Positions 34,842-56,505 of a stretch of DNA of 64,000 nucleotides are shown piece by piece (positions within the stretch are counted from its first letter, which is position 1; every line of letters starts with the position of its first letter). The stretch comes from an uncultured Actinomycetes bacterium (GTDB lineage: Bacteria; Actinomycetota; Actinomycetes; Nanopelagicales; Nanopelagicaceae). Location: positions 1-64,000 of the forward strand of contig CAIKKN010000017.1 in assembly GCA_903827945.1 (NCBI GenBank). Reading direction: 5' to 3'. The position numbers and the translations under genes are program-made. The notes under the pieces are model-generated. The model worked only from the letters and a program-made list of their open reading frames with translations, was not told the origin of the DNA and did no database searches.

Positions 34842-35073
34842 GGGCAGACTCCAATGCGCATCGGGGGAATACGAAGTTGCCGAATCTTAACTGAGGCGAC
34901 ACAGAAAACCCTGTGAATAGCCTCCCAAATAACTCTAAACCTCTACTTTATCCTTTGAGTTGACCCGGGATTTACTCCCCTGATTGATCGGAGTCGACCC
35001 TTTGCGCTCCCCTGCAAAGTTTGCTTCTCACGCTTGTGCCACGTGCATCAATTGCACGAATGGCCACAAGCAG

Positions 35074-36684: not shown

Positions 36685-37464
36685 TATTTTTAACCCAATT
36701 AGTGTCAAGGAAATAAATTGCCCCGCAATCATAAATGGCCCAAATGGAATGGCTGTTTTTCTTCCTGCGCTTCCAAATATCATCATTGCAATTCCAATTA
36801 CTGATCCTAGAAAGAAAGCAGAGAAGGAACTCACTAATACCGTGCTTAATCCAAAGTAGCCAGAAACCAAGCCAATGGATGCCGATAGTTTCACATCGCC
36901 AAAACCCATGCCGCCACGCGATATAAATGCAATCAAAAAATAGAATCCGACAAGTGAAATGGCGCCAATGAGCGATGGTTTGATTCTTGAATAATTAGAA
37001 GTTGAGATTGCGGAAACCACAATCACGATTAAGGAAATAATAGATAGAGAAACCGTAAGTCGATCAGGGAGTCGATGAACCTTCAAATCGATGACCGTAA
37101 GTGGCAATCCGATAATTGCGAAGATTATCCAGAGGGCAATGTGAGTATTTGTATTAAGCAGAAATAGAGGTGCGATAAATAGCGCTGCCATAGATGCTTC
37201 AATGGCCGGATACGTCCAAGAGATTTTCTCAGAACAACCGCCGCATCGACCTTTAAGTAAGAAATAGCTGATGAGTGGAATATTTTTTGAAGCGTTAATT
37301 TGCGTCGAGCAATGAGGGCATGCTGAACGAGTCCAAAGACTCTCGTTTGTTGGAATTCTCGCAATCAAAACCGTGGCAAAGGATCCAAAAACCAATCCAA
37401 AAATTGCGGCAAAAAAGAACCAGAACGGTGCTAATGAACCACTTAGCACCGTTCTGGTATTCAA
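36679..37464 (-). CDS. pilD: Prepilin peptidase / N-methyltransferase (PilD, A24 family)
   Basis: The 261-residue membrane protein has the N-terminal methyltransferase domain with two CxxC pairs (Cys49/52 and Cys74/77, probably zinc-binding), then the A24 core with catalytic Asp126 (IDLKVHRLPD) and Asp190 (GMGFGDVK). It cuts the leader before the conserved hydrophobic helix of prepilins and methylates the new N-terminus. Last gene of the pilus operon, 4 bases after the major pilin candidate. Confidence 0.93.
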   Translation of the reverse strand: MNTRTVLSGSLAPFWFFFAAIFGLVFGSFATVLIARIPTNESLWTRSACPHCSTQINASKNIPLISYFLLKGRCGGCSEKISWTYPAIEASMAALFIAPLFLLNTNTHIALWIIFAIIGLPLTVIDLKVHRLPDRLTVSLSIISLIVIVVSAISTSNYSRIKPSLIGAISLVGFYFLIAFISRGGMGFGDVKLSASIGLVSGYFGLSTVLVSSFSAFFLGSVIGIAMMIFGSAGRKTAIPFGPFMIAGQFISLTLIGLKIL

Positions 37465-38113: not shown

Positions 38114-38139
38114 AGTGCTCCTCTTATTTTGTGATTTTC

Positions 38140-38798: not shown

Positions 38799-39239
38799 TT
38801 AGTAATTTGACTCAGAAATATGTTCAGATTGGCCGAACATTGTTGCAGGATGAATTGTGAATATTCTTTCTGTATGTGAGCCATTCTTAGCAGTAAAGGT
38901 AACTTTTGTCTGTGGCGGCGCTTTTGAATCTGCGTTAGGTACAAGAACGCAAGAGATTTTCACGTCTTCCCTCTCGGTTGCGAAACCACAATTTGAAACC
39001 ATTTTTGCTTCGGCATCAGCAATACCAGCCGACGCTTGCTCATGCATTTGCTCCAGCACATTTGCGGTGGCTGATGAAATGCTGTTCGAAGCCTTTAGTT
39101 GTTCGACTCCGCGCCCTTGGGCGTCAGCAGAAAGCTGGGTTACTGTCATGACAGAACCAAGAACGGTGCTTACGGCCATGACAAAAATAAGTACGAGTCC
39201 AAGTGAATATCCAGAATCAGATTTGAAATAGTTTTTCAT
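38799..39239 (-). CDS. Pilus-operon protein with one N-terminal helix (PilX-like or degenerate prepilin)
   Basis: The 146-residue protein starts MKNYFKSDSGYSLGLVLIFVMAVSTVLG. The Gly before a hydrophobic helix resembles a prepilin site, but Glu5 is missing (YSLGL), as in PilX-type minor pilins. A Ser/Ala/Glu-rich helix and a small Cys-bearing C-terminal part follow (SNCGFA, ISCVLV). It overlaps the previous gene by 4 bases and is clearly part of the operon. Confidence 0.75.
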   Translation of the reverse strand: MKNYFKSDSGYSLGLVLIFVMAVSTVLGSVMTVTQLSADAQGRGVEQLKASNSISSATANVLEQMHEQASAGIADAEAKMVSNCGFATEREDVKISCVLVPNADSKAPPQTKVTFTAKNGSHTERIFTIHPATMFGQSEHISESNY

Positions 39240-40826: not shown

Positions 40827-42098
40827 TTAGCCACGAACTCCGCTATAGACGCCATACATGGCAGAAACAAGAGCAATTGCCACGAATCCAACGCCTCCAC
40901 CAATAACAAGCAGGGTTGCTGGCTCAAGAAGGGCAGTGAAGTTCTTTAGCTTGTGGTCAAGTTCATCTGAATAGAACGAGGCTGCCTGATGAAGTTGTGA
41001 GCCGAGTTGGCCTGATTCCTCACCAATTCTAAAGATTTGGATTGCTGCTGCTGGGAAGATTTTGGCAGAATCAAGAGGACCTGCAAGTCCTTCACCCTGC
41101 AATACGCGTGTACGTGCATGCATGATGGCGTTTTCAAAGACGCGGTTTCCCGTGCTTGCACCAGCAAGCTCGAGAGCTTCTGGAAGGTGCACATGGGTGC
41201 GCACGAGAGTTGAAAGAACGCGGCAGAATCGCTCGAGTGCAACAAGTTCAATCAGCGAGCCTGCTACTGGGATTGAAAGCATGAAGCGATCAAGCTTGAG
41301 TCTTCCCTTTGGATTACGGCGCATAAAGCCAAGAGCAGTAATTCCTGAAATCAAGAGGAAGGTCATCAACATCCACCAACCCTGAACAAAGTGAGTGGTT
41401 GCGAGGAGAATTCTTGTAGGAAGAGGAAGCTTCACGCCAAGTGAGTCAAAGAAGACCTGAAAGCGTGGGAGAACAAATACAGAAAGAACAACTGTTGCAA
41501 CAATTGTTAGTGAAACTAGTACTGCTGGATAAATCATCGCAGAGCGGACAGCACGTTTGCTGCGAAGATCGCGCTCGAGGTAAGAATTCAGAGTTGAAAG
41601 AGCCTCTGTGAGGTTTCCGCTACGTTCAGCAGAACTAAGAATCGCGCTGTAATAGCGAGGGAAAACTGTTGGATACTGCTTTACGGCATCGCTCAGGCGA
41701 GATCCGCTTTCAATGTCAATCAAAATCTCTTCCAAGATTTCGCGCATCTTCTTGTCATCAGCTGTTTGTGTCAGGATTGAGATTCCCTTGGCTGCTGGGA
41801 TTCCTGCTTCCGAGAAAGATGCAAGCTGACGCGTAATTTGCAGAAGAACCTCTAGCGGAACTGCGCGACCAAACTCGATGTCATACCAATTCTTCTTGTT
41901 GTTGATTTCAAGTTCAGAATTTCCATCGCGCTCAAGCATGAAACGCGCTTCACTGCGAGACATTGCTGTGATTGTTCCGGAAGTCTTATTTCCACGAACA
42001 TCAAAGCCTTTGTAGGAAAATTCGCGAAGCTCAGCAACTTCCTTTGCTTCCTTTTGCCACATCAACTTGAATGAAGCTTTTGAATTAAGCAATGTCAT
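40827..42098 (-). CDS. pilC: Type IV pilus/type II secretion inner-membrane platform protein (PilC/GspF)
   Basis: The 423-residue protein has the two GspF domains: FSEAGIPAAKGISILTQ in the first and LSTLVRTHVHLPEALELAG in the second, and three main membrane helices near residues 180-200, 225-245 and 395-415. It couples the ATPase PilB to pilin assembly. An N-terminal region of about 60 residues resembles the usual PilC leader domain. ATG 42062 is an alternative start, which would avoid the 14-base overlap with pilB. Confidence 0.93.
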   Translation of the reverse strand: MTLLNSKASFKLMWQKEAKEVAELREFSYKGFDVRGNKTSGTITAMSRSEARFMLERDGNSELEINNKKNWYDIEFGRAVPLEVLLQITRQLASFSEAGIPAAKGISILTQTADDKKMREILEEILIDIESGSRLSDAVKQYPTVFPRYYSAILSSAERSGNLTEALSTLNSYLERDLRSKRAVRSAMIYPAVLVSLTIVATVVLSVFVLPRFQVFFDSLGVKLPLPTRILLATTHFVQGWWMLMTFLLISGITALGFMRRNPKGRLKLDRFMLSIPVAGSLIELVALERFCRVLSTLVRTHVHLPEALELAGASTGNRVFENAIMHARTRVLQGEGLAGPLDSAKIFPAAAIQIFRIGEESGQLGSQLHQAASFYSDELDHKLKNFTALLEPATLLVIGGGVGFVAIALVSAMYGVYSGVRG

Positions 42099-43296
42099 TT
42101 GCCACCGCCAAAGTAAGTGCTTCCTCTACAGATGTGACACCTTCGGATGCGAGGCGAAGTGCTTCGTATTCCATTGTTGTCATGCCTGCTTCAAGAGCAT
42201 GCTTTCTAAAAAGAGTTGGTTGTGGGCGAGAAACCATGAACTCGCTAAGAAAATCACTTGATTCAAGAATCTGGAAGGCAGCAACGCGCTCTCTGTAGCC
42301 GGTGTTGCGGCAAGAGTCGCATCCTTTACCGATCTGAAGATCTGTTGCAGGTAGGCCATGAAGCTTTAGGATTTTCTGCTCTGTGAGGGTGGCCTTGTGG
42401 GCAGTTGCGCAATCAGCACAAATTTTACGAATAAGGCGTTGAGAGATTGCACCGCGGAATGCTGAAGCCAAAAGGTGAGATTCGATATCCATTTGAATGA
42501 GGCGGTAAATAGCGCCTACTGCATCCGTTGCGTGGATGGTGCTGAGAACCAAGTGACCTGTGAGGGCTGCTTGTACGGAAATTCGAGCAGTTTCCACGTC
42601 ACGAGTTTCGCCCACCATGATGATGTCTGGATCTTGGCGAATAACGGCGCGAAGTTGGACAGCAAAGCCAGCTTCATTTGCATCGTGCACTGGGATCTGT
42701 GTGATTCCTGGAACGACGTATTCGACAGGATCTTCGATGGTCACAACATTTTTATGCTCTACTGAAATGATTTTTAATGCTGAGTGGAGAGTTGTTGACT
42801 TTCCACTTCCCGTAGGACCAGCCACAAGAATGAGGCCGTTGCTTGCTGAAATCATACGTTCAAATGAGTTGAGTTGGCTTGTGCTCATGCCGAGGTCAGC
42901 TAATTCAACTGTTGGACGAGAAGAATCCAAGAGACGAAGAACTACTTTTTCGCCATTGATGGTTGCTACAGAGGAGACGCGGACGTCAACTTGGCGACCT
43001 TCAAAGGTAGTTGAGAATTGTCCATCTTGTGGTCGGCGACGCTCAATGATGTTCATCTGAGACATAACCTTTACACGACTAACAATCGCAGATGCCAAAC
43101 GAGCTGGATATTCAGCATAGTTTGTTAGGCGACCATCAATACGCGCACGTACAAGAAACTTCTCTTGATAAGGCTCTAAGTGAATATCGCTCGCACGATC
43201 ACGTACTGCCTTTTCAATTACTTGTTGAACCAAATCCGAAATTGACGCCTCTTCGAATTCACTTTCAATAATAGGAAGTTCTTGTATTTGTGCCAT
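42085..43296 (-). CDS. pilB: Pilus assembly ATPase (PilB/GspE)
   Basis: The 403-residue ATPase has Walker A GPTGSGKST (160-168), the Asp box, Walker B RQDPDIIMVGETRD, a His box (HLVLSTIHATDAVGAIYRL) and the zinc-binding ICADC and CDSC pairs of PilB. It lacks the large MshEN N-terminal domain of many PilBs, which accounts for the short length. That domain often binds c-di-GMP, so this kind of control is probably missing. No PilT retraction ATPase is seen in the window. Confidence 0.93.
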   Translation of the reverse strand: MAQIQELPIIESEFEEASISDLVQQVIEKAVRDRASDIHLEPYQEKFLVRARIDGRLTNYAEYPARLASAIVSRVKVMSQMNIIERRRPQDGQFSTTFEGRQVDVRVSSVATINGEKVVLRLLDSSRPTVELADLGMSTSQLNSFERMISASNGLILVAGPTGSGKSTTLHSALKIISVEHKNVVTIEDPVEYVVPGITQIPVHDANEAGFAVQLRAVIRQDPDIIMVGETRDVETARISVQAALTGHLVLSTIHATDAVGAIYRLIQMDIESHLLASAFRGAISQRLIRKICADCATAHKATLTEQKILKLHGLPATDLQIGKGCDSCRNTGYRERVAAFQILESSDFLSEFMVSRPQPTLFRKHALEAGMTTMEYEALRLASEGVTSVEEALTLAVANDIA

Positions 43297-45174
43297 TTAG
43301 CCCACCGAAACTTCCGCGCGACGGTTATTCTCACGGCCGGTGACAGTTGCATTTGTTGCTACTGGCTCAGTTGAAGAGAAGCCGCGATTAACGATCTTTA
43401 CACCTGGGAAGAACTTGGCGATGTAACTCTTTACAGAGACAGAACGAGCTGCAGAGAGCGGCTTATTCAAAGCTGCTGAACCGGTTGAGTCTGTGTGACC
43501 TGTGATGTAAATAGTATTGAGGCCAAGATTCTTAGCCGCCATTACGAGGTCATCAAGAAGTGAGCGGTCGTAAACCGAGAGAACGGATGATCCAGTCGCA
43601 AAGTGAACGACCTTCGCTGGAATCAACTTCGCGGCTGTGTACTTTGGACTCATCATTGTTGAGAAGGTTTGTTGGTGTCCAACAGCTTCAATGGTTAGGT
43701 CAGCGTGCGTATTGAGTGATTCCACCTGTGTGCACATTGTCTTTGGCGTTGTGCAAAGTAGCTTTGAACCAACATAAACGTTGTAGAAGACAACTTGTGA
43801 ATTATCTGGCTGCCACTTGATGGTGGCAGACTGCAAGTCATCTAGGTAGAACTTAGGAAGAAGAACCGGACCAGGATTTTCGACGACCCCGATGTAGAGC
43901 TCGACAAGGGCTCCATCTTGGGTGACTACAAAAGGAACAGCGATACGGCCTGTCCATCCATTAACCGCAGTAAAGATGACTCCTTCATCGGTGATTTCAA
44001 GCTTTAAACGAGTTCTTAGGCTGTCTTCAACACCAGGTGTCAATTGAATCTTTGTGCCTGGATCATGAGGAATCTTTACGAGGCTTGGCTTACCTGTGAT
44101 GTTAGAGAACTTGGCAAAAGTTGCGATGCGGCTATTCATACTTGCAGAACGAGCAAAACGCTTCTTTGAAGCTTTCTTAACAACAGGTTTTGTTGTCACA
44201 ATAATTGGACGAGCAACCTGAGGAAGTGTTGGTGCCGGAATTACTTCTACTGTAGAAACAGTTGGCTGATTGTCTGGAATATAAACTTCACATGACCCGC
44301 ACCCAGTTGGGGGAATAACAACATCGTCAGCTTTAGTAACTAAATAAACAACCGTTTTTTGTGAGAAAGGATCAAAGACAAAGCCAGATTTAGGAGTTCC
44401 GCCTGAACAGGAAGCTAGGTGTGATCCAACTGTTAATCCTTCACCGATGCAAGTTGGCGCGATATCGATTCCTTCAGGATGATATGTCGAATACGAAAAA
44501 ATTGGAGATGGATCTGTTCCAATTTTCCACGTTCCAGGATTAACCGTTGGCGTAATTACAATATGTGTAGGACCAGGAGCCGCAGCTTTAACTTCGAAAA
44601 CAGCAGGACCACCGATCACAACAGTGAAGTCATCAGTATCGGCACCGATAACGACTGAACCAGTTGAAACAGCAACTGAACAAGTTGCATTGTATGAACC
44701 GACAGGAGTTGATGAAGTAATTTCGGGTGCAGAAACTACTGGTGCGGACGGGAGAATTCCTGCAGGCGCTTCATTGCATGAAGCATGAATTCCACTCGCG
44801 TCGCCACCAAATGTCATTGAAGATTGGGACCAGCTTGGCGTTACGGTAACTATAACGCTCTTATGTTCGCGGTGGACCGTATCTGTTTCTGTTTCTGTTT
44901 CATCAAATCTAAATTTTCTAAAGTCAGCAATGTGTAGTGCTTTTGTATTTGAAGCAATAACAAGTGATTTAGTTGCAGGTGTTTTCGCAGTTGTAGAACT
45001 CTTTGGATTTGTAATTTTTTGCACAGGAACAAAAATGCGATACATGCGATTACGTGCTTTTGCTGGAAATTGATAAGCCTGCGCAGCACTATCTCCAAGT
45101 AAAAAGAACGACAAAATTACAGCAATCACCGCGATGGCTGGCTTGGAAAAAGTGTTATGTGGCGCTGGTTTCAT
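43297..45174 (-). CDS. Secreted protein with C-terminal OmpA-like domain, first in pilus operon
   Basis: The 625-residue protein has a signal peptide or anchor (ending DSAAQA), a long low-homology region with several Cys (SCNEAP, PTCIGEG, ASCSGG, CGSC) and beta-rich segments, and a C-terminal OmpA-like peptidoglycan-binding domain: VVHFATGSSVLSVYD, YITGHTDSTGS, LSAARSVSVKSYI and GRENNRRAEV. Such a domain would bind the cell wall, which in a monoderm could anchor the pilus base. It directly abuts pilB. I chose ATG 45174; a GTG 24 bases upstream is possible. Confidence 0.8.
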   Translation of the reverse strand: MKPAPHNTFSKPAIAVIAVILSFFLLGDSAAQAYQFPAKARNRMYRIFVPVQKITNPKSSTTAKTPATKSLVIASNTKALHIADFRKFRFDETETETDTVHREHKSVIVTVTPSWSQSSMTFGGDASGIHASCNEAPAGILPSAPVVSAPEITSSTPVGSYNATCSVAVSTGSVVIGADTDDFTVVIGGPAVFEVKAAAPGPTHIVITPTVNPGTWKIGTDPSPIFSYSTYHPEGIDIAPTCIGEGLTVGSHLASCSGGTPKSGFVFDPFSQKTVVYLVTKADDVVIPPTGCGSCEVYIPDNQPTVSTVEVIPAPTLPQVARPIIVTTKPVVKKASKKRFARSASMNSRIATFAKFSNITGKPSLVKIPHDPGTKIQLTPGVEDSLRTRLKLEITDEGVIFTAVNGWTGRIAVPFVVTQDGALVELYIGVVENPGPVLLPKFYLDDLQSATIKWQPDNSQVVFYNVYVGSKLLCTTPKTMCTQVESLNTHADLTIEAVGHQQTFSTMMSPKYTAAKLIPAKVVHFATGSSVLSVYDRSLLDDLVMAAKNLGLNTIYITGHTDSTGSAALNKPLSAARSVSVKSYIAKFFPGVKIVNRGFSSTEPVATNATVTGRENNRRAEVSVG

Positions 45175-45207
45175 TGGATATTTATACAAGAAGTCCACTT
45201 ACCCAGG

Positions 45208-45264: not shown

Positions 45265-46035
45265 CTAAATAATGTTTTGTCGAAGCGCCTCTTGTGCAGC
45301 CGCGCGACGGCCGGTCACATTGAGTGAGGAGTAAATCTTGATGGTTTCTTGACGCACAGTCGAGACGCTGTAACCAAGATCAGCTGCAATCTCGAAATTT
45401 GTTTTTCCTTCAATCAATCCTTCAAGAATTTGAAGTTGGCGACCGCTGAGATTGCCTTCTTTTGAAGGTTCAGATCGTGAATTGTTAAATGATTCACGAA
45501 TTGTTTCGTATTCATTTGGAATTTGTGCAATAACAGGTTGTTGATCCGAAGCAATTCGTTTGTTGGAAGTTAGATTTACATACAATCCAACTGCCATTCC
45601 AATTTGCGATGCAATCATTCCAATCTCATCGTTCTTTCGTTGTGGTAAATCAAAACCAATTGATAAAGCGCCAGAAACAACACCGCGTGGGCGGAAAGGC
45701 GCTACTACAGCTGATGAATTACGGTTCCAATAGAACTTCTCTTGGCAACCAAGTAACTTTGAAAAATCATTTGTTGATTGACGCCATTGCGCTGGTGTCA
45801 AAGTTTTTGATGCATGTCCAACAGAACTTAAGTAACCATATTCAGAAAGAACAGTTAGTGAGTCATCGTTGCTGAATTGAACAATGCGGCTCTTAGATGG
45901 TTGATATTGATGAAGATATCCGAGAACAATTCCACGGCAAATATCATCTAAACCAGGCTCGCTATTTAACCAATCAAGCAAACTTAAAAGAGAAAGCGAG
46001 AGAGTGTTATTGAGTTCATTATCATTCTGAGCCAT
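45265..46035 (-). CDS. LuxR-type transcriptional regulator
   Basis: The 256-residue protein has a C-terminal LuxR/GerE helix-turn-helix: LSGRQLQILEGLIEGKTNFE followed by IAADLGYSVSTVRQETIKIYSSLNV. The N-terminal about 170 residues resemble a GAF-like sensory domain rather than a receiver; no phospho-Asp pattern is visible. The start is ATG 46035 with GGGAG 6 bases upstream. It lies between the pilus operon and the giant oxidase gene, and AAATGGTCA-like sites flank it on both sides. It is thus the likely regulator of one or both. Confidence 0.87.
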   Translation of the reverse strand: MAQNDNELNNTLSLSLLSLLDWLNSEPGLDDICRGIVLGYLHQYQPSKSRIVQFSNDDSLTVLSEYGYLSSVGHASKTLTPAQWRQSTNDFSKLLGCQEKFYWNRNSSAVVAPFRPRGVVSGALSIGFDLPQRKNDEIGMIASQIGMAVGLYVNLTSNKRIASDQQPVIAQIPNEYETIRESFNNSRSEPSKEGNLSGRQLQILEGLIEGKTNFEIAADLGYSVSTVRQETIKIYSSLNVTGRRAAAQEALRQNII

Positions 46036-46346
46036 AACTTCTCCCTTCATTTCTCGTGTAAACCCCCGGAGTAGCCCAAGGTGAATCCCCAACGATACGG
46101 CGTGACGGTCAGGGTGACAACCCGCGGTCTAGACCACATACTTAATTACAGCCTTGTAATTCAGCGTAAATCAGGGGTTGTATGCATTTCGCTGATTTTG
46201 AAAATGGTCAAACTTTTGGTCAATTGCTTCGAATAACCATTTTTCGTAATTGTAGTCAACGAATGGGCAACAACTCTGACTAACTTCGCAAAAATTGAAC
46301 ACGCAATGAACAGTTTCGTAATTCGTACTTAGTTATAAATCTCCAC
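46036..46346. promoter_or_regulatory. Intergenic control region between LuxR gene and giant multicopper oxidase
   Basis: 311 bases without a gene. AATTACA-N4-TGTAATT (46144-46161) and AAATCAG-N17-CTGATTT (46168-46198) are inverted repeats. AAAATGGTCA (46201-46210), TTTTGGTCA (46214-46222) and the inverted TAACCATTTT (46235-46244) repeat the motif found before the pilus operon. TATAAA at 46334-46339 is a good -10 that places transcription start at the ATG of the oxidase (46347). The LuxR gene promoter must also lie here. Confidence 0.6.
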
Positions 46347-49300
46347 ATGGACATACGTATCAAGTCAACAGTTGGAGTAACTATGAAATTATTTAAGACA
46401 AGAGTGCAAATGCCATTCATTGCAATGCTGCTTGTGATCTCTTCGCTTTTCTCATCTCAGAGTGCGACATTCGCATTCAACACACCAACACCAACAACGG
46501 GCGGTGCAAATCTTGCAGCGTTGCCGACTGGTGCAACACCTGGTGCTGCAAGTGTTATGGCCACGACAGGCGATCCGTATCTTCCAACAACATCAACCCC
46601 TGACTACTTCGGTACGCCAGACCTGCACGCAAATGGTTCCGGCTCTGGTTATGCAACAGGTAACTTCGCAAATAGTCCATTGCCAGTTAGCGTATTGATT
46701 CAAGGTTCTGGAAGCGGAGCTCTTTACACAGCGGTTTACGATGCAACTTCAAATACCGGATCACCTATCACAGGTTTCCATATGATCAATGCTGGATTTG
46801 GATACGACCCAGCAACCACGCTTGTCTCTGTCATCGGTGGTGGCGGGTACGGCGCAGAAGGCGCTCCAGTAATTGACGCGTCAGGTGCCATCACTGAAAT
46901 TTCATTAACAAAGGGCGGTTCTGGTTACGGAACAACTAAGGGAATAAAGAAGTTCGTTCAAGATCTTCCAGATTTGCCAGTCGCAGAACCACACCACAAC
47001 ACAACTTCATACGGTGTTCCAGGAACACCTGGATATGTCCCAGCATCAGATTCGTATGAAATTGCTGCAGTCCGTTCGCAATGGAAATTTAGTCCAGACT
47101 TGCCTTACACAGAAGTCAATTTGTACGTACAGGTAGTTCCATGTTCCACACCAAACTCAGTTGCTCTCCATTATCCTGATTCAAAGGGAGTTCCAAATGA
47201 GGGGGCTTCGGTTCTCAATCATGGCGCGCAAGTTTGTGCAACGAAAACAAATAACGATGCCCTAGCTCCATTCCACTACCTTGGACCAACGATTGTTGCA
47301 AATAAAGATGTTCCAGTTCGCGTAACTTTTGATAACTACCTTCCTAGTGGTGATAAGGAATGTACAAGCAAGACAACCGGTACAGGAACCGGAACGATGA
47401 AGTGCGGCGGAGATTTATTCCTGCCCGTTGACTCAACAGTTATGGGCGCTGGATCAGGCCCAAATGGTGGTTTTTACTCTTCAAACCGCTCGACAATTCA
47501 CTTACACGGTGGAGTAACTCCTTGGATCAGCGATGGAACCATGGATCAATGGACATCACCTGCAGATTCAAATGAGCAATATCCAAAGGGTGTAAGCACT
47601 CGAAACGTTCCTGATATGTGGTACTCAACCACAACAGGTCAAATCGATGATGCCTGCACAGGACTACTTACATGTGTTGGTGCTACAAATGATCCAGGTA
47701 ATGGACACATGTCCTTTTATTACACAAATCAGCAAACTGCTCGTTTGATGTTCTACCACGACCACTCAAATGGAACTACTCGCCTCAATGTGTACTCCGG
47801 TATCATCGCAGGTTACATTCTGCATGATCAATGGGAAGCTCAGTTGATGGCAGCTGCGGGAATTCGCGGTGGTTCAAAAACTGTAGACACAATGACAGTA
47901 AATGCGGCTCAGGAAAAGGTTCTTGTTATTCAAGATAAGACTTTTGTTCCTTCTGCAACTCAACTGCTTCTTCAAGATCCAACATGGAACACTGCTGCGT
48001 GGGGTGGCGAAGGAAACTTGTGGTTCCCTCACGTTTACCAACCAAACCAAAACCCAGCACTTATTCCAGTTCCAACATTTGTAACCTCTGCATTCGCTGC
48101 TGGCGGATCTGGTCTGAAGGGTGCATCTACTGTCAATCTGACGGTTCCAAATTTCCAAATTAAGGCCTCACAACTTGTTTCAGGTACTGGTGTCGCAACT
48201 GGTGCAACTGTTCTCAATGTTTCAGCTAACGGCGTGACCGTCACATTGAGCAAGCCTGCTGCTTCAAACATCCTTGGAAAACTAACATTCCGTATCGCTG
48301 CATCCACTTCTCCTGGTGCAAATCCAACCGGACGTTGGGATTACGGCCCATGGACCTGGCCAGCTGCTAGAAACGTGATGATTGGTGAGACAACAAACCC
48401 ACTGTGTAAGACAGCGGCGACGTGCGTCCCAGGTCAATACAAAGCAAACCCAGGCGTGCCAAATGTAAGCGCTGTTCCTGAATCATTCAGCGACGTCATG
48501 ACTGTAAACGGTGTAACTTACCCAGTTGCAAAATTTGGCCGTAAGGTTTATCGCTTGCAGCTTCTAAACGGAAGCAACGAAAGAACACTTAACTTGAGTT
48601 TGTACTTTGCAAAGTCAACAAATTCCGATTCAACCCTTACAAATCACTCTGCAACACATTGCACGGGCAACTTGTGGGCAAATTCCGCTACTGATGTGGC
48701 TCCAGCTTGCGCAGATGCCGGTGAAATTTCACTCGTAACTCCGCTAGGAGGAACACCTGGTACTGAAGGTTTGGTTGCAAGGGATCAATTTGCTAACCAC
48801 CCTGCCGGTGTTCCAGATATGGGACTTGCTGGTCCAGATTGGGTTCAATTCGCCTCAGAAGGCGGAATCCTTCCTGATCTTGCGGTCACTCCTGCAAATC
48901 CAATTGGATTTGAAACAAGCAATCAGAGCGTCATCGTTGGTAACGTCAAGGAGCACTCGTTGATCCTTGGACCAGCCCAGCGCGCTGAAGTTTTTGTTGA
49001 CTTCACCTCAGTTCCAGAAGGTTCAACGTTGATTCTTTATAACGATGCTCCGGCTCCTTTCCCTGGTTTCGATCCTCGTTTTGATTACTACACAGGTGAT
49101 CCAGATCAGACTGCATCCGGTGGAGCTCCTTCGACTCTTCCTGGTTATGCGCCAAACACTCGTACCATCATGCAGATTCAGATTGACAACTCTCCTGCAG
49201 ATGCTCCACTTGATATCGCTGCAGTAACTGATGCTTTGCATAAGGACTATGCAGCGACACAACAATCTCCAGTTGCTGCCCAGATGGCGTATGACGCTGC

Positions 49301-52190
49301 TCTTGGCACAACAACACCAACAGATGTTTATCCAGCACTTGGCGACAACACTGTGCCAGTCACATCAACTGGTGTTTCCTCAATCTCTGTTACTCCAAAT
49401 GCTCGCGTTGGTACACCAACAGTTCAGATTACTGGCGGAAACGGAAACGGCGCACGCGCTGTTGCAAACGTTGCTGCAGGAAATGGAATTGGAAAAGTAA
49501 CAATCACAAATGGTGGCGGTTATACAGTCGCCACTCTTCCAACTGTTACTGCGCCTGCTCCAAAGGCCGCTGGCGGCCGCACTGCAAAACTCTCTACTTC
49601 TATCGGCGGAGCGGATCAACTTGGCACCGTCAATGTAATAAATGGCGGATCAGGTTATACATCTGCGCCAGTCGTCACCATTACAGGCGCATCTACAACG
49701 CAAGCTGTCGCAACAGCTCGCCTAACCCCGACAACCATCTCGAGTATTCGAATTGACACTGGCGGATTAAACACATCAGTTCCTGGAGTTTTACTTGAAG
49801 GTGGTCAGGCTGGGGCTGGAATTGCTGCAACAGCGGTTCTTGATAAGACACACATCACTGTTATCACACCAATTGAAGGTGGCTTGTACAACGTTGCACC
49901 TATCCTGTCTCTCAATCCGGTAGCTGCAGGTACAGCAATCGCGCACCTTTCCACAACAATTTCTGGCCTCACTGTGACTTCTGCAGGAACCGGTTGTTCT
50001 GTTGATGGAGGCGCCGCTTACAACCCAAGCAACGCATACTTTGTTGCCACTTTAACTGGCGGCGGCAAAGCACCAATTCAAGGAATTGCGTGGGCGAATG
50101 CTGGAGGAATCTCCTCTGCCGTCTACTTGCAATCTCTTACCTTGTTCTATGAAGGTTTCAATTACGAAACAGCTCCAACGGTTACGATTACAGGACACAA
50201 CATCACCTGTGGCACATACCCAACAGCTGTTGCTCAACTTAACCCAGGCCCAATCGCTTCGGTTGAAATTGTGACTGCGCCAGATCTCACTGATCTGACT
50301 TCAAACCCAACCGTGGTTGTGGACAATGCTGGACAAGGTGTAGCGCCAACATTTGATGTTGCCGTCCAAATCGCGCCTGTTGTAAGAATTGACTATGCAT
50401 CTGCAGTTGGAAGTACAAAGTTCTACGATGCGCCAGCAGTTGTTTTTGACTCTGGTAGCGCCGTAGCAACTGCGTTGCTTACCCCAACTTCTGTTGCGAG
50501 TGTTTACGTTGATCCAACAACGGGTCGAGGAAGCGGTTATGCCACTCCTCCAACCATCACGTTGGATGCTCCAAGCGTAATCACAACGACAACATCAGTT
50601 GGAAGTACTGTAGGTAGAACTGCTGGAACCGGAGTAACTTTGACGCAGGCGAACTCGCAAATAGCAGTCGGAATGAGTGTCACCGGAACTGGCATTGCTG
50701 CAAACACTTTTGTTAGTTCGATAAGTGGAACGAGTCTGGTTTTGAGTGTTAGCTCAAGATCAGTTATTTCGACAGGAACACTTACATTCACCACATCGAC
50801 TGCGACTGCGACTTCGACCATGCTCTCAGCAGGTGGGTTGTCAATCACTGTTGTTGATCCAGGTTCTGGTTACACCTCTGCAGATGAAGTTGGCGGAAAG
50901 ATTCCTCTGACGCTCTCAAAAGTTGTTGGGGGCGCTACTGCCTCAGCAGTTCGTGGAGATGGAAGCGTTTATTCCATCACTGTGACAAATCCTGGTTCTG
51001 GATATATCTCAGCACCAACTGTGTCTTTGATTTATCCAACAGGCGCACCTGATACAACCTCAGCTAAGGCAACCATCGTTTCTCAAAACGTTGTTATGAC
51101 TTACGCTCCAAAGGGAATCATGGAAGAGTTTGAAGCAATGTATGGCCGCATGGATGCCATCATGTCTTCAGAACTTCCAAGCACGAACTGGGCTAACCAG
51201 ACCTCTGTTCCTTGGTCAAGTGTGGACTCCCCTACCGAGTTGATTGATACAAACCAATCAAGTGTTCTCGTAGGAGCAGGAACAACACCTGTTGCCAGCT
51301 TGCCTGATGGAACTCAGATTTGGCGCTACACCCACAACGGTGTGGATACCCACTTCATGCACTTCCACATGTTTAACGTTCAAGTTATCGCACGATTCGG
51401 TTGGGATGGAGTGATCCAACCTCTAGCTGCTTACGATTTAGGATGGCGTGACACGGTTCAATTCGATCCACTCACAATCCTGTACATCGCAATCAAGCCA
51501 GTGGTTCCAATCGTTCCTTGGTCACTGCCAAACAGCATTCGCCCGCTATCTGCTTCAGAAGCGATCGATATGCCAGGCATGATGATGTCCGCATCGGATC
51601 CAGCGAACAACCCAATAACTCAGACAAACGTCTTGGTTAACTTCGGTTGGGAGTACATGGTCCACTGTCACCTCCTCGGCCACGAAGAGGGCGACATGAT
51701 GCGTCCAATCGTCGTCGGAGTCGTACTCAACACACCAGAGTTAACTTCGGTTACTAAGAAAACCACTTCGACAATAGTCTGGCGTACAACAGGAAGAAAT
51801 TCACGTACCTGTACACCAACTCCTGCAAATACCTTAACCTGTCGTTCGACGACCACTACCACCACAACTGGACACGTTGTGTTCGTCGACAAATCCAATA
51901 ACGAAAGTGGATTCTTGATCCAACGTCGTACCTCAGGTACTACAAACTGGAGCACAGTGACCACGATTTCCAGAGCTGCGCCAGTCTGGGATCCAGTTAC
52001 TCAGACTGCGACAGATGATGGATTGTCTACAGGAATACCTGAAGTGTATGAAGACACAACAGTGAGAACTGGAACGTCCTACGAGTACCGAGTCATAGCT
52101 TTCGACTCAATCGGAGCACAGAACATGGGTGCATTCCCATCCTCTGATGTTCAATCAGATCCATCCACTACCGCTTACGTAACAATCTAA
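46347..52190 (+). CDS. Giant secreted multicopper oxidase with repeat insertion
   Basis: The 1947-residue exported protein has all four copper motifs: HLHG (His385, His387), HDH (His471, His473), H-x2-HFH (His1669, 1672, 1674) and HCH-x3-H-x4-M (His1773, Cys1774, His1775, His1779, Met1784), giving type 1, 2 and 3 copper sites. About 1195 residues separate motifs 2 and 3. That region has repeats of a G-x-GY-x-APTVTI phrase (about residues 1056, 1100, 1270, 1393, 1549) and a duplicated GTGVA/GTGIA module (about 585-650 and 1418-1481). The last about 160 residues look like a fibronectin-type domain. A signal peptide precedes FNTPTP; starts at 46347 or 46383. Large oxidases such as MofA/MnxG oxidise Mn(II); that activity is only a hypothesis here. 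Confidence 0.93.
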   Translation: MDIRIKSTVGVTMKLFKTRVQMPFIAMLLVISSLFSSQSATFAFNTPTPTTGGANLAALPTGATPGAASVMATTGDPYLPTTSTPDYFGTPDLHANGSGSGYATGNFANSPLPVSVLIQGSGSGALYTAVYDATSNTGSPITGFHMINAGFGYDPATTLVSVIGGGGYGAEGAPVIDASGAITEISLTKGGSGYGTTKGIKKFVQDLPDLPVAEPHHNTTSYGVPGTPGYVPASDSYEIAAVRSQWKFSPDLPYTEVNLYVQVVPCSTPNSVALHYPDSKGVPNEGASVLNHGAQVCATKTNNDALAPFHYLGPTIVANKDVPVRVTFDNYLPSGDKECTSKTTGTGTGTMKCGGDLFLPVDSTVMGAGSGPNGGFYSSNRSTIHLHGGVTPWISDGTMDQWTSPADSNEQYPKGVSTRNVPDMWYSTTTGQIDDACTGLLTCVGATNDPGNGHMSFYYTNQQTARLMFYHDHSNGTTRLNVYSGIIAGYILHDQWEAQLMAAAGIRGGSKTVDTMTVNAAQEKVLVIQDKTFVPSATQLLLQDPTWNTAAWGGEGNLWFPHVYQPNQNPALIPVPTFVTSAFAAGGSGLKGASTVNLTVPNFQIKASQLVSGTGVATGATVLNVSANGVTVTLSKPAASNILGKLTFRIAASTSPGANPTGRWDYGPWTWPAARNVMIGETTNPLCKTAATCVPGQYKANPGVPNVSAVPESFSDVMTVNGVTYPVAKFGRKVYRLQLLNGSNERTLNLSLYFAKSTNSDSTLTNHSATHCTGNLWANSATDVAPACADAGEISLVTPLGGTPGTEGLVARDQFANHPAGVPDMGLAGPDWVQFASEGGILPDLAVTPANPIGFETSNQSVIVGNVKEHSLILGPAQRAEVFVDFTSVPEGSTLILYNDAPAPFPGFDPRFDYYTGDPDQTASGGAPSTLPGYAPNTRTIMQIQIDNSPADAPLDIAAVTDALHKDYAATQQSPVAAQMAYDAALGTTTPTDVYPALGDNTVPVTSTGVSSISVTPNARVGTPTVQITGGNGNGARAVANVAAGNGIGKVTITNGGGYTVATLPTVTAPAPKAAGGRTAKLSTSIGGADQLGTVNVINGGSGYTSAPVVTITGASTTQAVATARLTPTTISSIRIDTGGLNTSVPGVLLEGGQAGAGIAATAVLDKTHITVITPIEGGLYNVAPILSLNPVAAGTAIAHLSTTISGLTVTSAGTGCSVDGGAAYNPSNAYFVATLTGGGKAPIQGIAWANAGGISSAVYLQSLTLFYEGFNYETAPTVTITGHNITCGTYPTAVAQLNPGPIASVEIVTAPDLTDLTSNPTVVVDNAGQGVAPTFDVAVQIAPVVRIDYASAVGSTKFYDAPAVVFDSGSAVATALLTPTSVASVYVDPTTGRGSGYATPPTITLDAPSVITTTTSVGSTVGRTAGTGVTLTQANSQIAVGMSVTGTGIAANTFVSSISGTSLVLSVSSRSVISTGTLTFTTSTATATSTMLSAGGLSITVVDPGSGYTSADEVGGKIPLTLSKVVGGATASAVRGDGSVYSITVTNPGSGYISAPTVSLIYPTGAPDTTSAKATIVSQNVVMTYAPKGIMEEFEAMYGRMDAIMSSELPSTNWANQTSVPWSSVDSPTELIDTNQSSVLVGAGTTPVASLPDGTQIWRYTHNGVDTHFMHFHMFNVQVIARFGWDGVIQPLAAYDLGWRDTVQFDPLTILYIAIKPVVPIVPWSLPNSIRPLSASEAIDMPGMMMSASDPANNPITQTNVLVNFGWEYMVHCHLLGHEEGDMMRPIVVGVVLNTPELTSVTKKTTSTIVWRTTGRNSRTCTPTPANTLTCRSTTTTTTTGHVVFVDKSNNESGFLIQRRTSGTTNWSTVTTISRAAPVWDPVTQTATDDGLSTGIPEVYEDTTVRTGTSYEYRVIAFDSIGAQNMGAFPSSDVQSDPSTTAYVTI

Positions 52191-52204
52191 GGAAGATGAG
52201 AAAC

Positions 52205-54001
52205 ATGAAAATCAATACAAACATGACAGCTGGAAAGAAGCTTCTATCAGTTCTTTTCCTCTCAACGTTGATTTCAACGCCTACATTCCTTAGTCAAGGT
52301 GCATGGGCCGGATCAAAGATGAGCATGCCAATGAACATGCCTATGCCTACAACGGCGCCAAAAGCGCCGGCTGCGGCGAAGGCGTCGACGCCTGTTGCGC
52401 CAAAAGTTGCAACGCCTGCGAAAGCTCCTTCCACAACCTCTTCCTACAAGGTCGCAGTTGGTGTGAAGTATGCATCTCAAAAGGTCACCTTGCAGCTCAA
52501 GACTAAAGTTGGAAGTAAGACAACAAAGACAACTATTGGATCATTTACAGCCGATAGCAAAGGATTTGTTGTAATTCCAAAACTTACAAAGCCTGCATCA
52601 AATGCCCAACTTCTTGTTGTGGTAGCCGGAAGGCAAGTAAATAGCTTCTCTGCTTCACTCATGAAGCCGGCTTCAACGTCGCTACCTCAAGGAAGCGTTG
52701 CTGCGCCATTCGTAGCACCAACAGCTGAGCCAACACCAACACCAGCTGCCGAACCAACAGTTGCTCCGACTCCTGTACAGACTGCGCAACCAGTTGTTCC
52801 TGCGCCGGTTGTAACTCCAACCCCAACAGTTGCAGATGCTCTTGTTCCACAATTTGGAACAATCAACCTCACAAACGAGGGTTACACAATTCAGATTACA
52901 AACTACGATCCCGCGTTCACATGGAAAGCAACTGATACTTCAGGCGCACTTGTCACGATTTCAAAAACTGGACTCGTAACTGTTGTGTACAACGGATTGC
53001 CAGGAAAGGTAACAATCAGTACTTCACGTACAGATTACAAGCCTTCTTCTGTAGCGGCGCCAACAGTCTCCATTAACGGGGCTGCTGCTCCTGCCGCACC
53101 TGCTGCTGCTCCTGCCGCTGCTGCTGCTCCTGCCGCTGCTGCTGCTCCCGCTGCTGCTGCACCGTCGCCTTCAGCGTCGTCGGCGCCCGCTTCACCGGCA
53201 CCTGCTGCAATTGTTGCCCCGCATTTCGCACTCACGGTTCCAAATAAGGTCATCACAATTGGTTCATCCGTAACAAACGGGTACTTGATCAACACAAGCG
53301 GTGGACCAGTTGATTCATACCTCATCTTCCCTGCAGCTCCTGCTGGAACATCTTTCGATGCTGCTACTGGGTTGCTAAGTGGAACACCAACTAATCAACA
53401 AGCTGCAACGCAGTATCAGATCACCGGTGTGAATACTTCTGGAATCTTCCAGGTCATTTACACATTGACTGTTAACGCACGTCCATCAGCAAGTTCAGGA
53501 ACTGCCGCGAATATTATTCGCCTAGGCTCTCTGAAAGCCATGCGCGTTGGCGCCGCTGATCAAGTTATTCCTGGTCTTGCAAGCAGCAACTTGCCGATTG
53601 TCTATACGACATCAAATAGCGCTGTCTGCGAAATCGTTACTGGTACATCACTCGTTCACGCTAAGGCTGCTGGTGATTGCCAAATCATCGCAAATCAAGC
53701 GGGTAACGGCACATATGGTCAAGCAAACTCAGTGACTTCAGCCGTCTTCACCGTAATAGCGGCGAATGACACGCGCTGGATTGTTGTTCTAGATCCAAAT
53801 GGTGGATTGAATAACGGAAGTTCAGCTATCACATGGCAGCTAGTTGCTCGTGGAAGTTCAATTACTTTGCCAGCAGGTCTGACAAACCTTCCCGGTTACA
53901 CAACATACTTATGGCAATATGATAGCGTTGCAAATGTGAATACTGCTGCGCCCACTTTCATACCAACAGCGGACACAACACTCGTCGCTAAGTGGAGTTA
54001 A
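52205..54001 (+). CDS. Secreted Met-rich, Pro/Ala-rich multidomain protein, partner of the oxidase
   Basis: The 598-residue exported protein has a signal ending AWA, then a Met cluster (MSMPMNMPMP) that looks like a copper-binding site, a Thr/Pro/Ala linker, a beta domain, an Ala/Pro run near residues 293-320, a putative-Ig (He_PIG) unit (PAGTSFDAATGLLSGTPTN) and a C-terminal Listeria-Bacteroides-type repeat (LDPNGG to FIPTADTTLVAKWS). ATG 52205 is chosen because AAGGA lies 8 bases upstream; an ATG at 52196 overlaps that site. It follows the oxidase by 14 bases, so it is surely co-transcribed. A role in copper loading or surface attachment is plausible. Confidence 0.82.
   Translation: MKINTNMTAGKKLLSVLFLSTLISTPTFLSQGAWAGSKMSMPMNMPMPTTAPKAPAAAKASTPVAPKVATPAKAPSTTSSYKVAVGVKYASQKVTLQLKTKVGSKTTKTTIGSFTADSKGFVVIPKLTKPASNAQLLVVVAGRQVNSFSASLMKPASTSLPQGSVAAPFVAPTAEPTPTPAAEPTVAPTPVQTAQPVVPAPVVTPTPTVADALVPQFGTINLTNEGYTIQITNYDPAFTWKATDTSGALVTISKTGLVTVVYNGLPGKVTISTSRTDYKPSSVAAPTVSINGAAAPAAPAAAPAAAAAPAAAAAPAAAAPSPSASSAPASPAPAAIVAPHFALTVPNKVITIGSSVTNGYLINTSGGPVDSYLIFPAAPAGTSFDAATGLLSGTPTNQQAATQYQITGVNTSGIFQVIYTLTVNARPSASSGTAANIIRLGSLKAMRVGAADQVIPGLASSNLPIVYTTSNSAVCEIVTGTSLVHAKAAGDCQIIANQAGNGTYGQANSVTSAVFTVIAANDTRWIVVLDPNGGLNNGSSAITWQLVARGSSITLPAGLTNLPGYTTYLWQYDSVANVNTAAPTFIPTADTTLVAKWS
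53083..53162 (+). repeat. Ala/Pro-coding low-complexity tract
   Basis: GCTGCTGCTCCTGCCG-like units repeat through this tract and encode APAAA runs. It is locally much richer in G and C than the flanks, and reads as an Ala-rich chain on the opposite strand too. It probably works as a flexible linker and is prone to length change by slippage. Confidence 0.75.
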
Positions 54002-54525
54002 TGAATATAAATAAGAAGTTGATTGGGGCAGGGCTAGCATTGCTGCTCTGCCTCCAATCTGCGCCTGCAAAAGCCGATGTGGATCTTCTTGTTGAATTGG
54101 ATTCAACTGTCGTCGCCATGCATGACTTCTCAGTCTTATCGGCTCAAATAAATAGCAAGTCAACACAGGATTCAGTAAAAGCAATCAACTCACCACTCAA
54201 TCAACAGCTCGGGACAATCCGAACAAAGCTCACTAAATTTGATAAGGATCTCACTCACAATTGGGTGTACTTAACGGTCGACGCTAACTATTTGTATCCA
54301 GGCCGTGAAACTCTTCGAAAGTTCGATTTAACGTCTTTCAAGTGGTACACATTTGAGCTCAACGCTCAAAAACAAATCACTGCCTGCTATAAGAATGTGG
54401 CAACAAGCAAGAAGTGCGTGTCGGATATTCGCGCAAAGAATAAGGCCTCTGAATTAAAACTATATGGCGCAGTAACGTCAGTACTAAATCAGATTCAAAC
54501 CTGGCGCAAGATCGCTAAGAGATAA
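54001..54525 (+). CDS. Small secreted protein, unknown function
   Basis: A 174-residue protein with a signal peptide (cleavage after AKA), then a helical chain rich in Lys, Leu and Thr, with a Tyr/Trp-bearing middle (NWVYLTVDANYLYPGRETL) and two Cys (ITACYKN, KKCVSD) that may pair. No known family. Its ATG shares a base with the stop of the previous gene (TAATG), so it is translationally coupled to the Met-rich protein and belongs to the oxidase operon. An in-frame GTG 9 bases earlier is unlikely. Confidence 0.8.
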   Translation: MNINKKLIGAGLALLLCLQSAPAKADVDLLVELDSTVVAMHDFSVLSAQINSKSTQDSVKAINSPLNQQLGTIRTKLTKFDKDLTHNWVYLTVDANYLYPGRETLRKFDLTSFKWYTFELNAQKQITACYKNVATSKKCVSDIRAKNKASELKLYGAVTSVLNQIQTWRKIAKR

Positions 54526-54528
54526 CTC

Positions 54529-55065
54529 TTACAAACCCGCTCTAGCGAGCGCACTCACCAGCGAGTCATACCAACCTTGGGATGTATAAGTCGCTCCCCC
54601 AACACCTTGAATATCTGCCGACGATGCTTTAACTGTCTCCTGAATTAAATAAGGCACAGCCAACTTGTTTAGCTCTATATCTTTCGCAGTTCCACTGGGA
54701 AGTTGAATGGCTCGCGCAGCAACAATCTTGCTTGCAACAATATCGATTTGAACTTGAACTGGACCGTATTGAGTTTGCGCGGCCAGACCAGTAAACGTCC
54801 CATTAATTGGAGCCTTTGGAACTGCAATTGTTTTCACCGGTTTTGGCTTGGCAATCTTCGTGGGGGAAACTGTCGCCGGGGTCGTTGGCGTTGGCGTTGG
54901 CGTTTCTGAAGGGGTCGGAGTTTCTGAAGGCGTTGGAGTTTCTGAAGGGGTCGGAGTAGCAATGACGCCACTTGAAACTCCCTGATGAGGCGGCGCGTAG
55001 GCCAAAATTGCGCCAACTCCGCCAACCGTGCCGGCAACGACTGCAACTATCTTTACTGCGCCCAT
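54529..55065 (-). CDS. FMN-binding-domain protein
   Basis: The 178-residue protein has an N-terminal membrane helix, a Thr/Pro/Ser/Glu linker with three SETPTP units, and an FMN_bind domain at about 88-178 ending ADIQGVGGATYTSQGW. Here GGAT-x-T matches the flavinylation motif whose Thr takes FMN from ApbE. It lies 17 bases after a ferric-reductase-like membrane oxidoreductase on the same strand, a common pairing for electron transfer across the membrane. The domain is outside the cell membrane by topology. Confidence 0.88.
   Translation of the reverse strand: MGAVKIVAVVAGTVGGVGAILAYAPPHQGVSSGVIATPTPSETPTPSETPTPSETPTPTPTTPATVSPTKIAKPKPVKTIAVPKAPINGTFTGLAAQTQYGPVQVQIDIVASKIVAARAIQLPSGTAKDIELNKLAVPYLIQETVKASSADIQGVGGATYTSQGWYDSLVSALARAGL
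54902..54955 (-). repeat. Three tandem 18-bp repeats encoding SETPTP units
   Basis: On the plus strand GTTTCTGAAGGGGTCGGA starts at 54902 and 54938, and a copy with two changes starts at 54920. They encode the SETPTP linker. Low divergence implies recent expansion. Confidence 0.85.
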
Positions 55066-55082: not shown

Positions 55083-56417
55083 TTATTCAGCATGAAATTC
55101 AAAAGCTTCTGCGTGAAAACGTTCTTTCGGAATGCCGCAGGCTAGGGCTGCTGCCCTGACTGCGTCAACAAGTGGGGTTGGCCCACACACATAGACGTCA
55201 CTGTAACGAAAGGCCGGAACATACTTCATTATGTGGCTGGCATTCATAGGATGCTGCTTTCGAGATCCCATTAAGTAATGCACTCGGGCTCCGCGAGCTT
55301 CTGCTAATTCATCTAGCTCTAATTTGAAGACTAAATCATCTTCGGAAGCTGCTCTAAAAATGACATCAACTTCAACGGACGGGTCAAACTCTTCCATAAG
55401 CGCCCGAAGCGGAGTTATTCCGACTCCCCCGCCGACAAGAACTGCGTGCCCCAAACCCTTTGTCGCTTTGGACGCTGTGAAAATTCCAAAAGGACCTTCG
55501 AAGAAGACTTTAGTTCCTGGCTTGAGATGCTTAACGGCGCCGGATGCATCACCGAGATTCTTAACAGTGACACGCATTTCTTCGGAAGTAGGTGCTGCAG
55601 AAAGTGAATAAGGATGGGCGATCCACCATTGTCCTTTTGTCATGAAGCGCCAACTAAAGAATTGTCCGCCTTGCGCGTTTAAGCGATCCAATTTATGTCC
55701 GCGCATCACGATGGAAACAACGCTAGAACCCTCATCAACTATCTCTGCGACTCGAAGATCATGCCTAAATGATCTAAAAACTGGAATCACCACACGCCAA
55801 TAGATAATTGTGAATGCAGTGAGGAGGTAAAGACCTTCCCAGTAATACTTATTGAGGGGATGGTTTAAAAACATCGGCCCGGTTAGCACCTGGTGCATGT
55901 AACTCAACGCGATGGCCAAGTAGGTATAAAGATGAATCGTCCACCACGTCTCATATGACATCTTGGATCGAACACGCTTGTAAGAGGTAACTCCGGCGGC
56001 AACAAAGAATAGGAATCCAACGGCAGCTGGCAACATCCATTGATAGTTTCGCGTCATTCGCCACAACTCGCCACCTATACGCAAGCCTTCATTTCCGGCG
56101 TAACCAAGTGCAACGAGTAGCACGTGGAATGTGATGAGGAAGAGCGCGTAAGGGCCAAGCTTGCGATGCCACCGCACTAATTTGTCATGTCCAACAGATC
56201 TTTCAATCCATGAAATTCGAGAGACCATCACGATGCCGACGAGGGCGAAATACGTTCCAACAAGCGCGCAAATTCGTGACACAGAGATGATGGCGGGATA
56301 TGGCCACGCCCAGTCCGAACGCGTTGTTGACTCTAGAAAAATTGCGACAGTAAGACCGAGTCCAACTCCCAAGACGGCGCTCGCCCAATCAGCATAATAT
56401 TTCGCCCGAACGCTCAT
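55083..56417 (-). CDS. Ferric-reductase-like transmembrane oxidoreductase (FAD/NAD(P)H)
   Basis: The 444-residue protein has six N-terminal helices with haem-ligand His candidates (WHRKLGPYALFLITFHVLL and WTIHLYTYLAIALSYMHQVL), then a ferredoxin-reductase-type module: FAD-binding HPYSLSAAP, FEGPFGIF, and nucleotide-binding VGGGVGITPLRALMEE and VYVCGPTPLVDAV. It resembles the NOX/FRE family that moves electrons from NAD(P)H through FAD and haem to an outside acceptor, here likely the FMN-binding protein downstream. ATG 56417 chosen over an in-frame TTG 21 bases upstream. Confidence 0.9.
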   Translation of the reverse strand: MSVRAKYYADWASAVLGVGLGLTVAIFLESTTRSDWAWPYPAIISVSRICALVGTYFALVGIVMVSRISWIERSVGHDKLVRWHRKLGPYALFLITFHVLLVALGYAGNEGLRIGGELWRMTRNYQWMLPAAVGFLFFVAAGVTSYKRVRSKMSYETWWTIHLYTYLAIALSYMHQVLTGPMFLNHPLNKYYWEGLYLLTAFTIIYWRVVIPVFRSFRHDLRVAEIVDEGSSVVSIVMRGHKLDRLNAQGGQFFSWRFMTKGQWWIAHPYSLSAAPTSEEMRVTVKNLGDASGAVKHLKPGTKVFFEGPFGIFTASKATKGLGHAVLVGGGVGITPLRALMEEFDPSVEVDVIFRAASEDDLVFKLELDELAEARGARVHYLMGSRKQHPMNASHIMKYVPAFRYSDVYVCGPTPLVDAVRAAALACGIPKERFHAEAFEFHAE

Positions 56418-56505
56418 AAAGAGATTGAAACCTCGCAATCTGCATTTATCCTGAGAATCGGTTAAGAGTCTGGGAATAATAGCCCGATTCGGGCCTTCTG
56501 AATAT

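Follow-up and report, generated by a model that had tools for sequence, protein, structure and literature searches.

A giant multicopper oxidase assigned to the OmpB/MofA clade and inherited with a pilus block in a genus of Nanopelagicaceae

A DNA stretch of 64,000 nucleotides from an uncultured actinobacterium of the family Nanopelagicaceae (contig CAIKKN010000017.1, positions 1 to 64,000, hereafter called the window) encodes a giant multicopper oxidase (MCO) of 1947 residues. By its place in a tree of relatives, this protein is assigned to a clade of giants that contains MofA/OmpB-type operon genes, apart from the MCOs of laccase size. The MCO and a pilus machine are co-inherited as one block in a minority of species of the same genus. 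The MCO is probably a secreted giant of the OmpB/MofA clade, which would act on the surface of attached cells to oxidise Mn(II), Fe(II) or phenolic/humic compounds. Its secretion, copper loading, oxidase activity and display on the surface or on a pilus are presumed from the features described below.

The oxidase gene and its copper sites

The open reading frame starts with ATG and has no internal stop. The gene and the motifs that define it are listed here; each copper motif is supported by the sequence and by the ortholog and family alignments.

46347..52190, plus strand: giant MCO, 1947 residues (open reading frame, same-genus orthologs, tree)
46383..46472, plus strand: probable Sec signal peptide, residues ~13-42, read from the sequence (KLFKTRVQ..FIAMLLVISSLFSSQSATFA), with a helix predicted at residues 10-35
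47499..47507, plus strand: copper motif 1, H385-L-H387 (HLHG)
47757..47765, plus strand: copper motif 2, H471-D-H473
51351..51368, plus strand: copper motif 3, HFMHFH (H1669, H1672, H1674)
51663..51698, plus strand: copper motif 4, HCHLLGHEEGDM (H1773, C1774, H1775, H1779, M1784)

The first-pass annotation of this DNA had counted ten His, one Cys and an axial Met, and both the sequence and the alignments bear this out. The ligand set is complete, with the HxH, HxH, HxxHxH and HCHxxxH motifs in order, the last one reading H1773-C1774-H1775-LLG-H1779-EEGD-M1784. All ligand His and the Cys are invariant in the three full-length same-genus orthologs and in the 31-row family alignments. The axial Met is replaced by Phe in two of these three orthologs (L030 and L031; HCHLLGHEEGDF / HEENDF), and also in L056. 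Phe is known as the axial residue of high-potential fungal laccases. Since same-genus orthologs of 1838-1867 residues and identical layout occur in independent genomes, the gene is real and not the product of an assembly error; a chance or frame artefact is ruled out by the same conserved full-length orthologs. A viral origin of the gene was also considered and rejected: no relative was found in viral contigs, and only the repeats resemble phage structural proteins. The matches on plasmids were all laccase-like, with 26-30% identity over 11-14% of the query.

Relatives and phylogenetic position

A search of 84,980 prokaryote species returned 39 loci, nearly all of them encoding giants, from Chloroflexota, Actinomycetota (Coriobacteriia and others), Methanothrix, Methanoperedens, deltaproteobacterial groups, Acidobacteriota, Planctomycetota, Bdellovibrionota and others. 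Another search, of 297 genomes in the phylum to which a Syntrophus relative belongs, added some twenty long MCOs. Several of these adjoin genes for FKBP, SCO1/SenC and one-haem proteins, an arrangement described for mofABC and, in part, for the ompB cluster (PMC5566968).

A quick tree was computed with laccase-size outgroups and with such operon genes as anchors; membership in the OmpB/MofA clade rests on these anchors, since the tree lacks the named OmpB and MofA sequences. A branch with an SH-aLRT support of 100 separates 51 giants, among them the query clade and four MofA/OmpB-type operon genes, from 18 laccase-size MCOs and three mid-size rows (1051-1069 residues), which come from loci also holding an FKBP gene. 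The query clade itself (four rows, support 100) lies near the base of the giants, without being close to the other actinobacterial ones. Pairwise comparison agrees with this placement: the query matches the operon anchor L120 with 31-42% identity and an E-value of 1e-81, whereas a laccase-size actinobacterial MCO reaches only 57.8 bits.

Grouping with ordinary laccases only, the outcome named beforehand as contrary to a MofA-like assignment, is thus not what the tree gives. The layout likened to MofA does group with giants of MofA/OmpB-type operons, but the step from there to a manganese oxidase does not follow from the clade, since OmpB is tied to Fe(III) oxide reduction and many of the relatives belong to strict anaerobes. 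An actinobacterial version joined to a pilus locus had also been thought undescribed. An actinobacterial giant as such is not unique, because Coriobacteriia and other Actinomycetota carry members of the clade (L053, L057, L060, L065, L068, L074, L075 and L076, of 1312-1757 residues); it is the pilus-linked, repeat-inserted form that stands out.

Some of the relatives have features of their own. In loci L115 (1636-4845) and L116 (1973-5155), an FKBP gene stands between the giant MCO and a second, mid-size one of ~1060 residues. Giant MCOs with copper motifs are found in metagenome-assembled genomes (MAGs) of Methanothrix/Methanoperedens (L046, L054, L071, L072), where an O2-dependent oxidase is unexpected. 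A Dehalococcoidia giant (L044, 8117-20281) reaches 4054 residues, and many of its 37 GxGY motifs lie on the N-terminal side of the oxidase core.

Inheritance with the pilus block

The order of the block is kept in genomes G007 and G031, as well as in contig fragments of G001, G005, G014 and G025; in G007, the genes outside the block differ from those of the window. Of the 296 genomes searched in the family (17 genera), seven have the MCO, all of them within the 32-genome genus of the window and none in any other genus. Seven of the 32 genus genomes likewise contain a close pilus ATPase ortholog (73-80% identity), and six of these seven carry the MCO. The remaining MCO carrier, G005, is without the ATPase, and its genome is 63% complete. 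The probability of such an overlap by chance is about 5e-5 in a hand calculation that assumes independent genomes, an assumption that does not hold here. The linkage to a pilus locus reported in the first-pass annotation is therefore upheld by conserved synteny.

The genes of the block and of its flanks are the following:

34984..36684, plus strand: secreted M57-like metallopeptidase, at the edge of the block (Pfam 2.1e-5; synteny)
36679..37464, minus strand: prepilin peptidase (A24; Pfam)
37469-38155, 38140-38796, 38799-39239, 39236-39919 and 39916-40824, minus strand: five pilin-like genes (N_methyl domain; class III signal starts)
40827..42098, minus strand: pilus platform protein (PilC/GspF; Pfam T2SSF, E 9.4e-52)
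42085..43296, minus strand: pilus/type II secretion ATPase (PilB/GspE/ComGA type; Pfam T2SSE, E 6.7e-110)
43297..45198, minus strand: secreted protein with a C-terminal domain of the OmpA peptidoglycan-binding type (Pfam)
45265..46092, minus strand: LuxR-type regulator, divergent from the MCO (GerE domain; 71-76% identity at the syntenic position)
52196..54001, plus strand: secreted 601-residue protein with an Ig-like (He_PIG) domain and a Met-rich mature N-terminus (Pfam; syntenic orthologs)
53992..54525, plus strand: secreted 177-residue protein, kept in the block (synteny)
54529..55065, minus strand: FMN_bind protein with a flavinylation-type motif (GGAT), conserved (Pfam 0.0014, just below the cut-off)
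55083..56438, minus strand: membrane NAD(P)H:ferric-reductase-like protein (MsrQ-like, with a NAD-binding domain; Pfam)

As judged from their domains, the genes upstream of the MCO encode a type IV pilus or type II secretion-like machine, with a prepilin peptidase, the PilC/GspF and PilB/GspE components and pilins bearing class III signals. The N_methyl domain is recognised in two of the pilin-like genes and marginally in a third; their starts read GFTLIE, GFTVIE, GISLLE or GDSLLE, the weakest case being 38799-39239. On the other side of the MCO, the 601-residue protein has the mature N-terminus MSMPMNMPMP, partly conserved as a short Met motif there in all five orthologs; this protein is a candidate copper donor or partner of the MCO.

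Pilus linkage was rejected as a general rule of the giants: among L043-L076, two sister loci, L059 (4127-8158) and L066 (3042-7324), are the only ones with pilus/secretion ATPase and platform genes close to the MCO. In these two deltaproteobacterial loci, a LuxR-type response regulator, a pseudopilin and GspF/GspE adjoin the giant MCO, an arrangement reminiscent of the window; two loci are too few to claim an enrichment. At the edge of the block, the window also encodes a second FMN_bind-like protein (33864-34841) with a conserved C-terminal Cys/Lys segment (..VVKCPTGYKLVKK), found at the same edge in G007 and G028.

Fold of the oxidase and its repeats

The only Pfam match of the MCO is Cu-oxidase_2, at residues 1648-1717; NCBIfam gives a weak similarity to PhsA and CueO, and the best sequence match in the PDB is CotA (E 1e-19). 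No MnxG was recognised among these PDB matches, in a search that included no comparison aimed at MnxG. The protein was modelled as two overlapping parts with family alignments, with modest mean predicted local distance difference test (pLDDT) values of 56 and 54. The domains recognised are the following:

46656..46946, plus strand: N-terminal segment of GxGY-type repeats, residues ~104-200 (phrog_460 match; predicted strands)
46941..49268, plus strand: cupredoxin domains 1 and 2, residues ~199-974 (structural match to a CotA-type laccase)
49269..51101, plus strand: insert in the linker between domains 2 and 3, residues ~975-1585, with GxGY-type units and one further module
51099..51725, plus strand: cupredoxin domain 3, residues ~1585-1793 (structural match; Pfam Cu-oxidase_2)
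51717..52187, plus strand: C-terminal fibronectin type III (FnIII) domain, residues ~1792-1947 (model and structure search)

Residues 199-971 of the model superimpose on residues 2-358 of a Bacillus CotA-type laccase (Z 29.7, 314 residues aligned), and residues ~1585-1793 on residues 368-511 of CotA (Z about 13, 130 residues aligned). The three cupredoxin domains stand in the CotA order in this comparison of models. Since the two halves match CotA up to and from residue ~360/368, the copper fold looks intact. The FnIII domain is modelled with pLDDT values mostly above 80-90 and reaches a Z of 12.9 against FNIII domains.

That CotA and PhsA are the closest solved relatives agrees with a laccase-like enzyme acting on phenols or humic matter, in which the repeats would form an adhesin, the pilus would attach the cells to humic particles and metals would be irrelevant. 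The same-genus genomes are environmental actinobacterial MAGs, with isolate names that we read as pointing to lakes, which would suit such a substrate. The MCO groups nevertheless with the OmpB/MofA giants and not with the laccase-size enzymes, and this alternative is considered unlikely.

The matches to CotA on either side define residues ~975-1585 as an insert within the domain 2-3 linker. This insert holds about twelve G-x-G-Y units of ~40 residues (drawn by eye) and a second type of module. Strict G-x-G-Y motifs occur four times in residues 1006-1585, against 0.03 expected, and none of 2000 shuffles gave as many, so that the repeats described earlier between motifs 2 and 3 are real. A self-BLAST of the repeats returned nothing. 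The pLDDT is below 50 over most of the insert, and no fold is therefore claimed for it. The gap of about 1200 residues between copper motifs 2 and 3 that had drawn attention to this protein is confirmed at 1198 residues, but not all of it is insert: the same distance is 507-821 residues in related giants (median 558), a span of 507-628 being usual in the family, so that about 560 of the residues are normal there. The net excess of ~540 residues lies entirely within the domain 2-3 linker. Counted from the N-x-RT motif to YGRM, this linker has 662 residues in the MCO and 601-662 within its genus, as compared with 96-180 in nearly all relatives and 336 in a Methanoperedens relative.

GxGY motifs are also found N-terminal of the oxidase (residues ~99-200), where phrog_460 matches residues 131-200 with an E-value of 1.5e-18 and strands are predicted with a pLDDT of about 70-91. 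The repeats of both segments (46656-46946 and 49269-51101) score against the phage structural families phrog_460, 708 and 19630; no Pfam match to them was found. This points to a shared surface repeat. With close to half of its chain made of repeats or FnIII, and with repeats of this resemblance, the protein could be viewed as mainly a surface adhesin or structural protein, its oxidase part being non-essential or copper-protective (as a cuprous oxidase); the copper-binding-like Met-rich N-terminus of the next gene's product could be read in the same sense. The copper ligands, however, are strictly kept in distant relatives, whereas the repeats are not, and this explanation is held to be highly improbable.

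Flavin and reductase neighbours

In G000, G005, G007 and G025, the MCO has the ferric-reductase-like and FMN_bind genes as neighbours. This adjacency would fit a function in the reductive direction, the MCO being an extracellular electron-transfer protein, as proposed for Geobacter OmpB: electrons from NAD(P)H would reach the MCO by way of the ferric-reductase-like protein and flavinylated FMN_bind proteins, and would be passed on to Fe(III), Mn(IV) or humics. An ApbE flavin transferase is encoded in the genome, and relatives of the MCO are carried by strict anaerobes. Pairs of ferric-reductase-like and FMN_bind genes are nevertheless known as MsrQ-like flavinylation systems of Actinobacteria (PMC8238504), and their position beside the MCO may be incidental. 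The reductase is present in 27 of the 32 genus genomes (E <= 0.001), most of them with strong matches and mostly without the MCO; the pair is thus not specific to the block, and its status as a fixed block part is weakened. In G001, another gene lies 3' of the 177-residue gene and the reductase copies are on other contigs. A further copy lies near ApbE in the window's own genome (contig C9). No CxxCH motif occurs in the main genes of the window. A reductive role is considered possible, on the doubtful side. At L155 (446-1825, G011:C3), a single TAG stop interrupts a ferric-reductase-like gene, which is likely a pseudogene or the result of an assembly error.

Proposed function

In a planktonic lake actinobacterium, the MCO would most likely use O2 to oxidise Mn(II), Fe(II) or phenolic matter. 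An external reductant would supply electrons to the type 1 copper (H1669, C1774, H1779, M1784), from which they would reach the trinuclear cluster, where O2 would be reduced; the ligands read in the gene and the modelled fold are consistent with such a catalysis. The three cupredoxin domains would form a normal catalytic core, with the G-x-G-Y repeats filling the surface linker between domains 2 and 3. These repeats, the N-terminal ones and the FnIII domain probably serve in binding or spacing at the cell surface, on the pilus or on mineral/humic particles. The MCO gene, linked as it is to the pilus machine and the LuxR regulator, probably entered a few species of the genus by transfer of the whole block.

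Several points weigh against this oxidative interpretation. Geobacter OmpB, the homologue best known from experiments, is associated with the reduction of Fe(III) oxides. Strict anaerobes are the source of many relatives (Methanothrix, Methanoperedens, Syntrophus, Anaerolineaceae), so that the clade may have a function other than O2-dependent oxidation. The Phe axial residue of two orthologs would shift the copper potential. Contact between the MCO and the pilus is hypothetical, and genome G028 has the pilus block without the MCO, its contig ending inside the gene for the OmpA-domain protein, beyond which the MCO would lie. Finally, mofB (FKBP), mofC (haem protein) and SCO1 were not found in a Pfam scan of the main neighbourhood open reading frames; this is not taken as excluding membership in the clade, because these partners vary among relatives.

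In a further-reaching interpretation, the block is transferable, and the giant MCO of a one-membrane bacterium is carried or exported by a dedicated pilus or pseudopilus for extracellular metal/humic redox chemistry, performed by a streamlined freshwater actinobacterium with no c-type cytochrome encoded nearby. Taken as a whole, this interpretation is offered tentatively, as a rather improbable one.

Metal oxidation and metal reduction both come into consideration for giants of the OmpB/MofA kind, and their function and secretion are unsettled. A form that a small-genome lake bacterium inherits together with a pilus machine provides a compact test system: the pilus is a candidate device for delivery or display of the MCO, and the repeat insert could be removed without touching the copper centres. 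If confirmed, the proposed function would mean that extracellular metal or humic redox chemistry also occurs in planktonic actinobacteria.

Comparison with known systems

OmpB of Geobacter sulfurreducens (GSU1394) is a giant surface MCO with a FnIII domain, linked to Fe(III) oxide reduction (PMC5566968). The query also has a FnIII domain, and its clade includes Desulfobacterota operon genes of the ompB/mofA type, the OmpB sequence itself not being part of the comparison. In contrast to OmpB, the query has no cytochrome c or SCO1 neighbour, contains a long GxGY linker insert and is joined to a pilus block. Actinomycetota have no outer membrane, unlike the host of OmpB.

MofA of Leptothrix discophora is a reported homologue of OmpB, whose operon includes mofB (a peptidyl-prolyl isomerase) and mofC (a cytochrome c) (PMC5566968). 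Relatives with a mof-type operon fall in the clade of the query; mofB and mofC, however, are not near the query gene, and the identity to the operon-anchored L120 is limited to the range given above. With MsrQ-like flavinylation systems, the query shares the neighbouring ferric-reductase-like and FMN_bind pair, but this pair occurs widely in the genus and can be separated from the MCO, and the word "multicopper" is nowhere in the main text of PMC8238504.

CotA laccase, bilirubin oxidase and PhsA have the same core fold and ligand order and are the best PDB matches; they are nevertheless enzymes of about 500-600 residues, far from the 1947 residues of a member of the giant clade. The giants of Coriobacteriia and other Actinomycetota belong to the same clade, but they are not sister to the query, their linker has 102-122 residues, and their available flanking DNA gave no pilus-gene matches. 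The pilus-linked, repeat-inserted MCO of the window is best read as a variant within the OmpB/MofA kind that would be secreted, would oxidise metals or phenols and would work together with a pilus.
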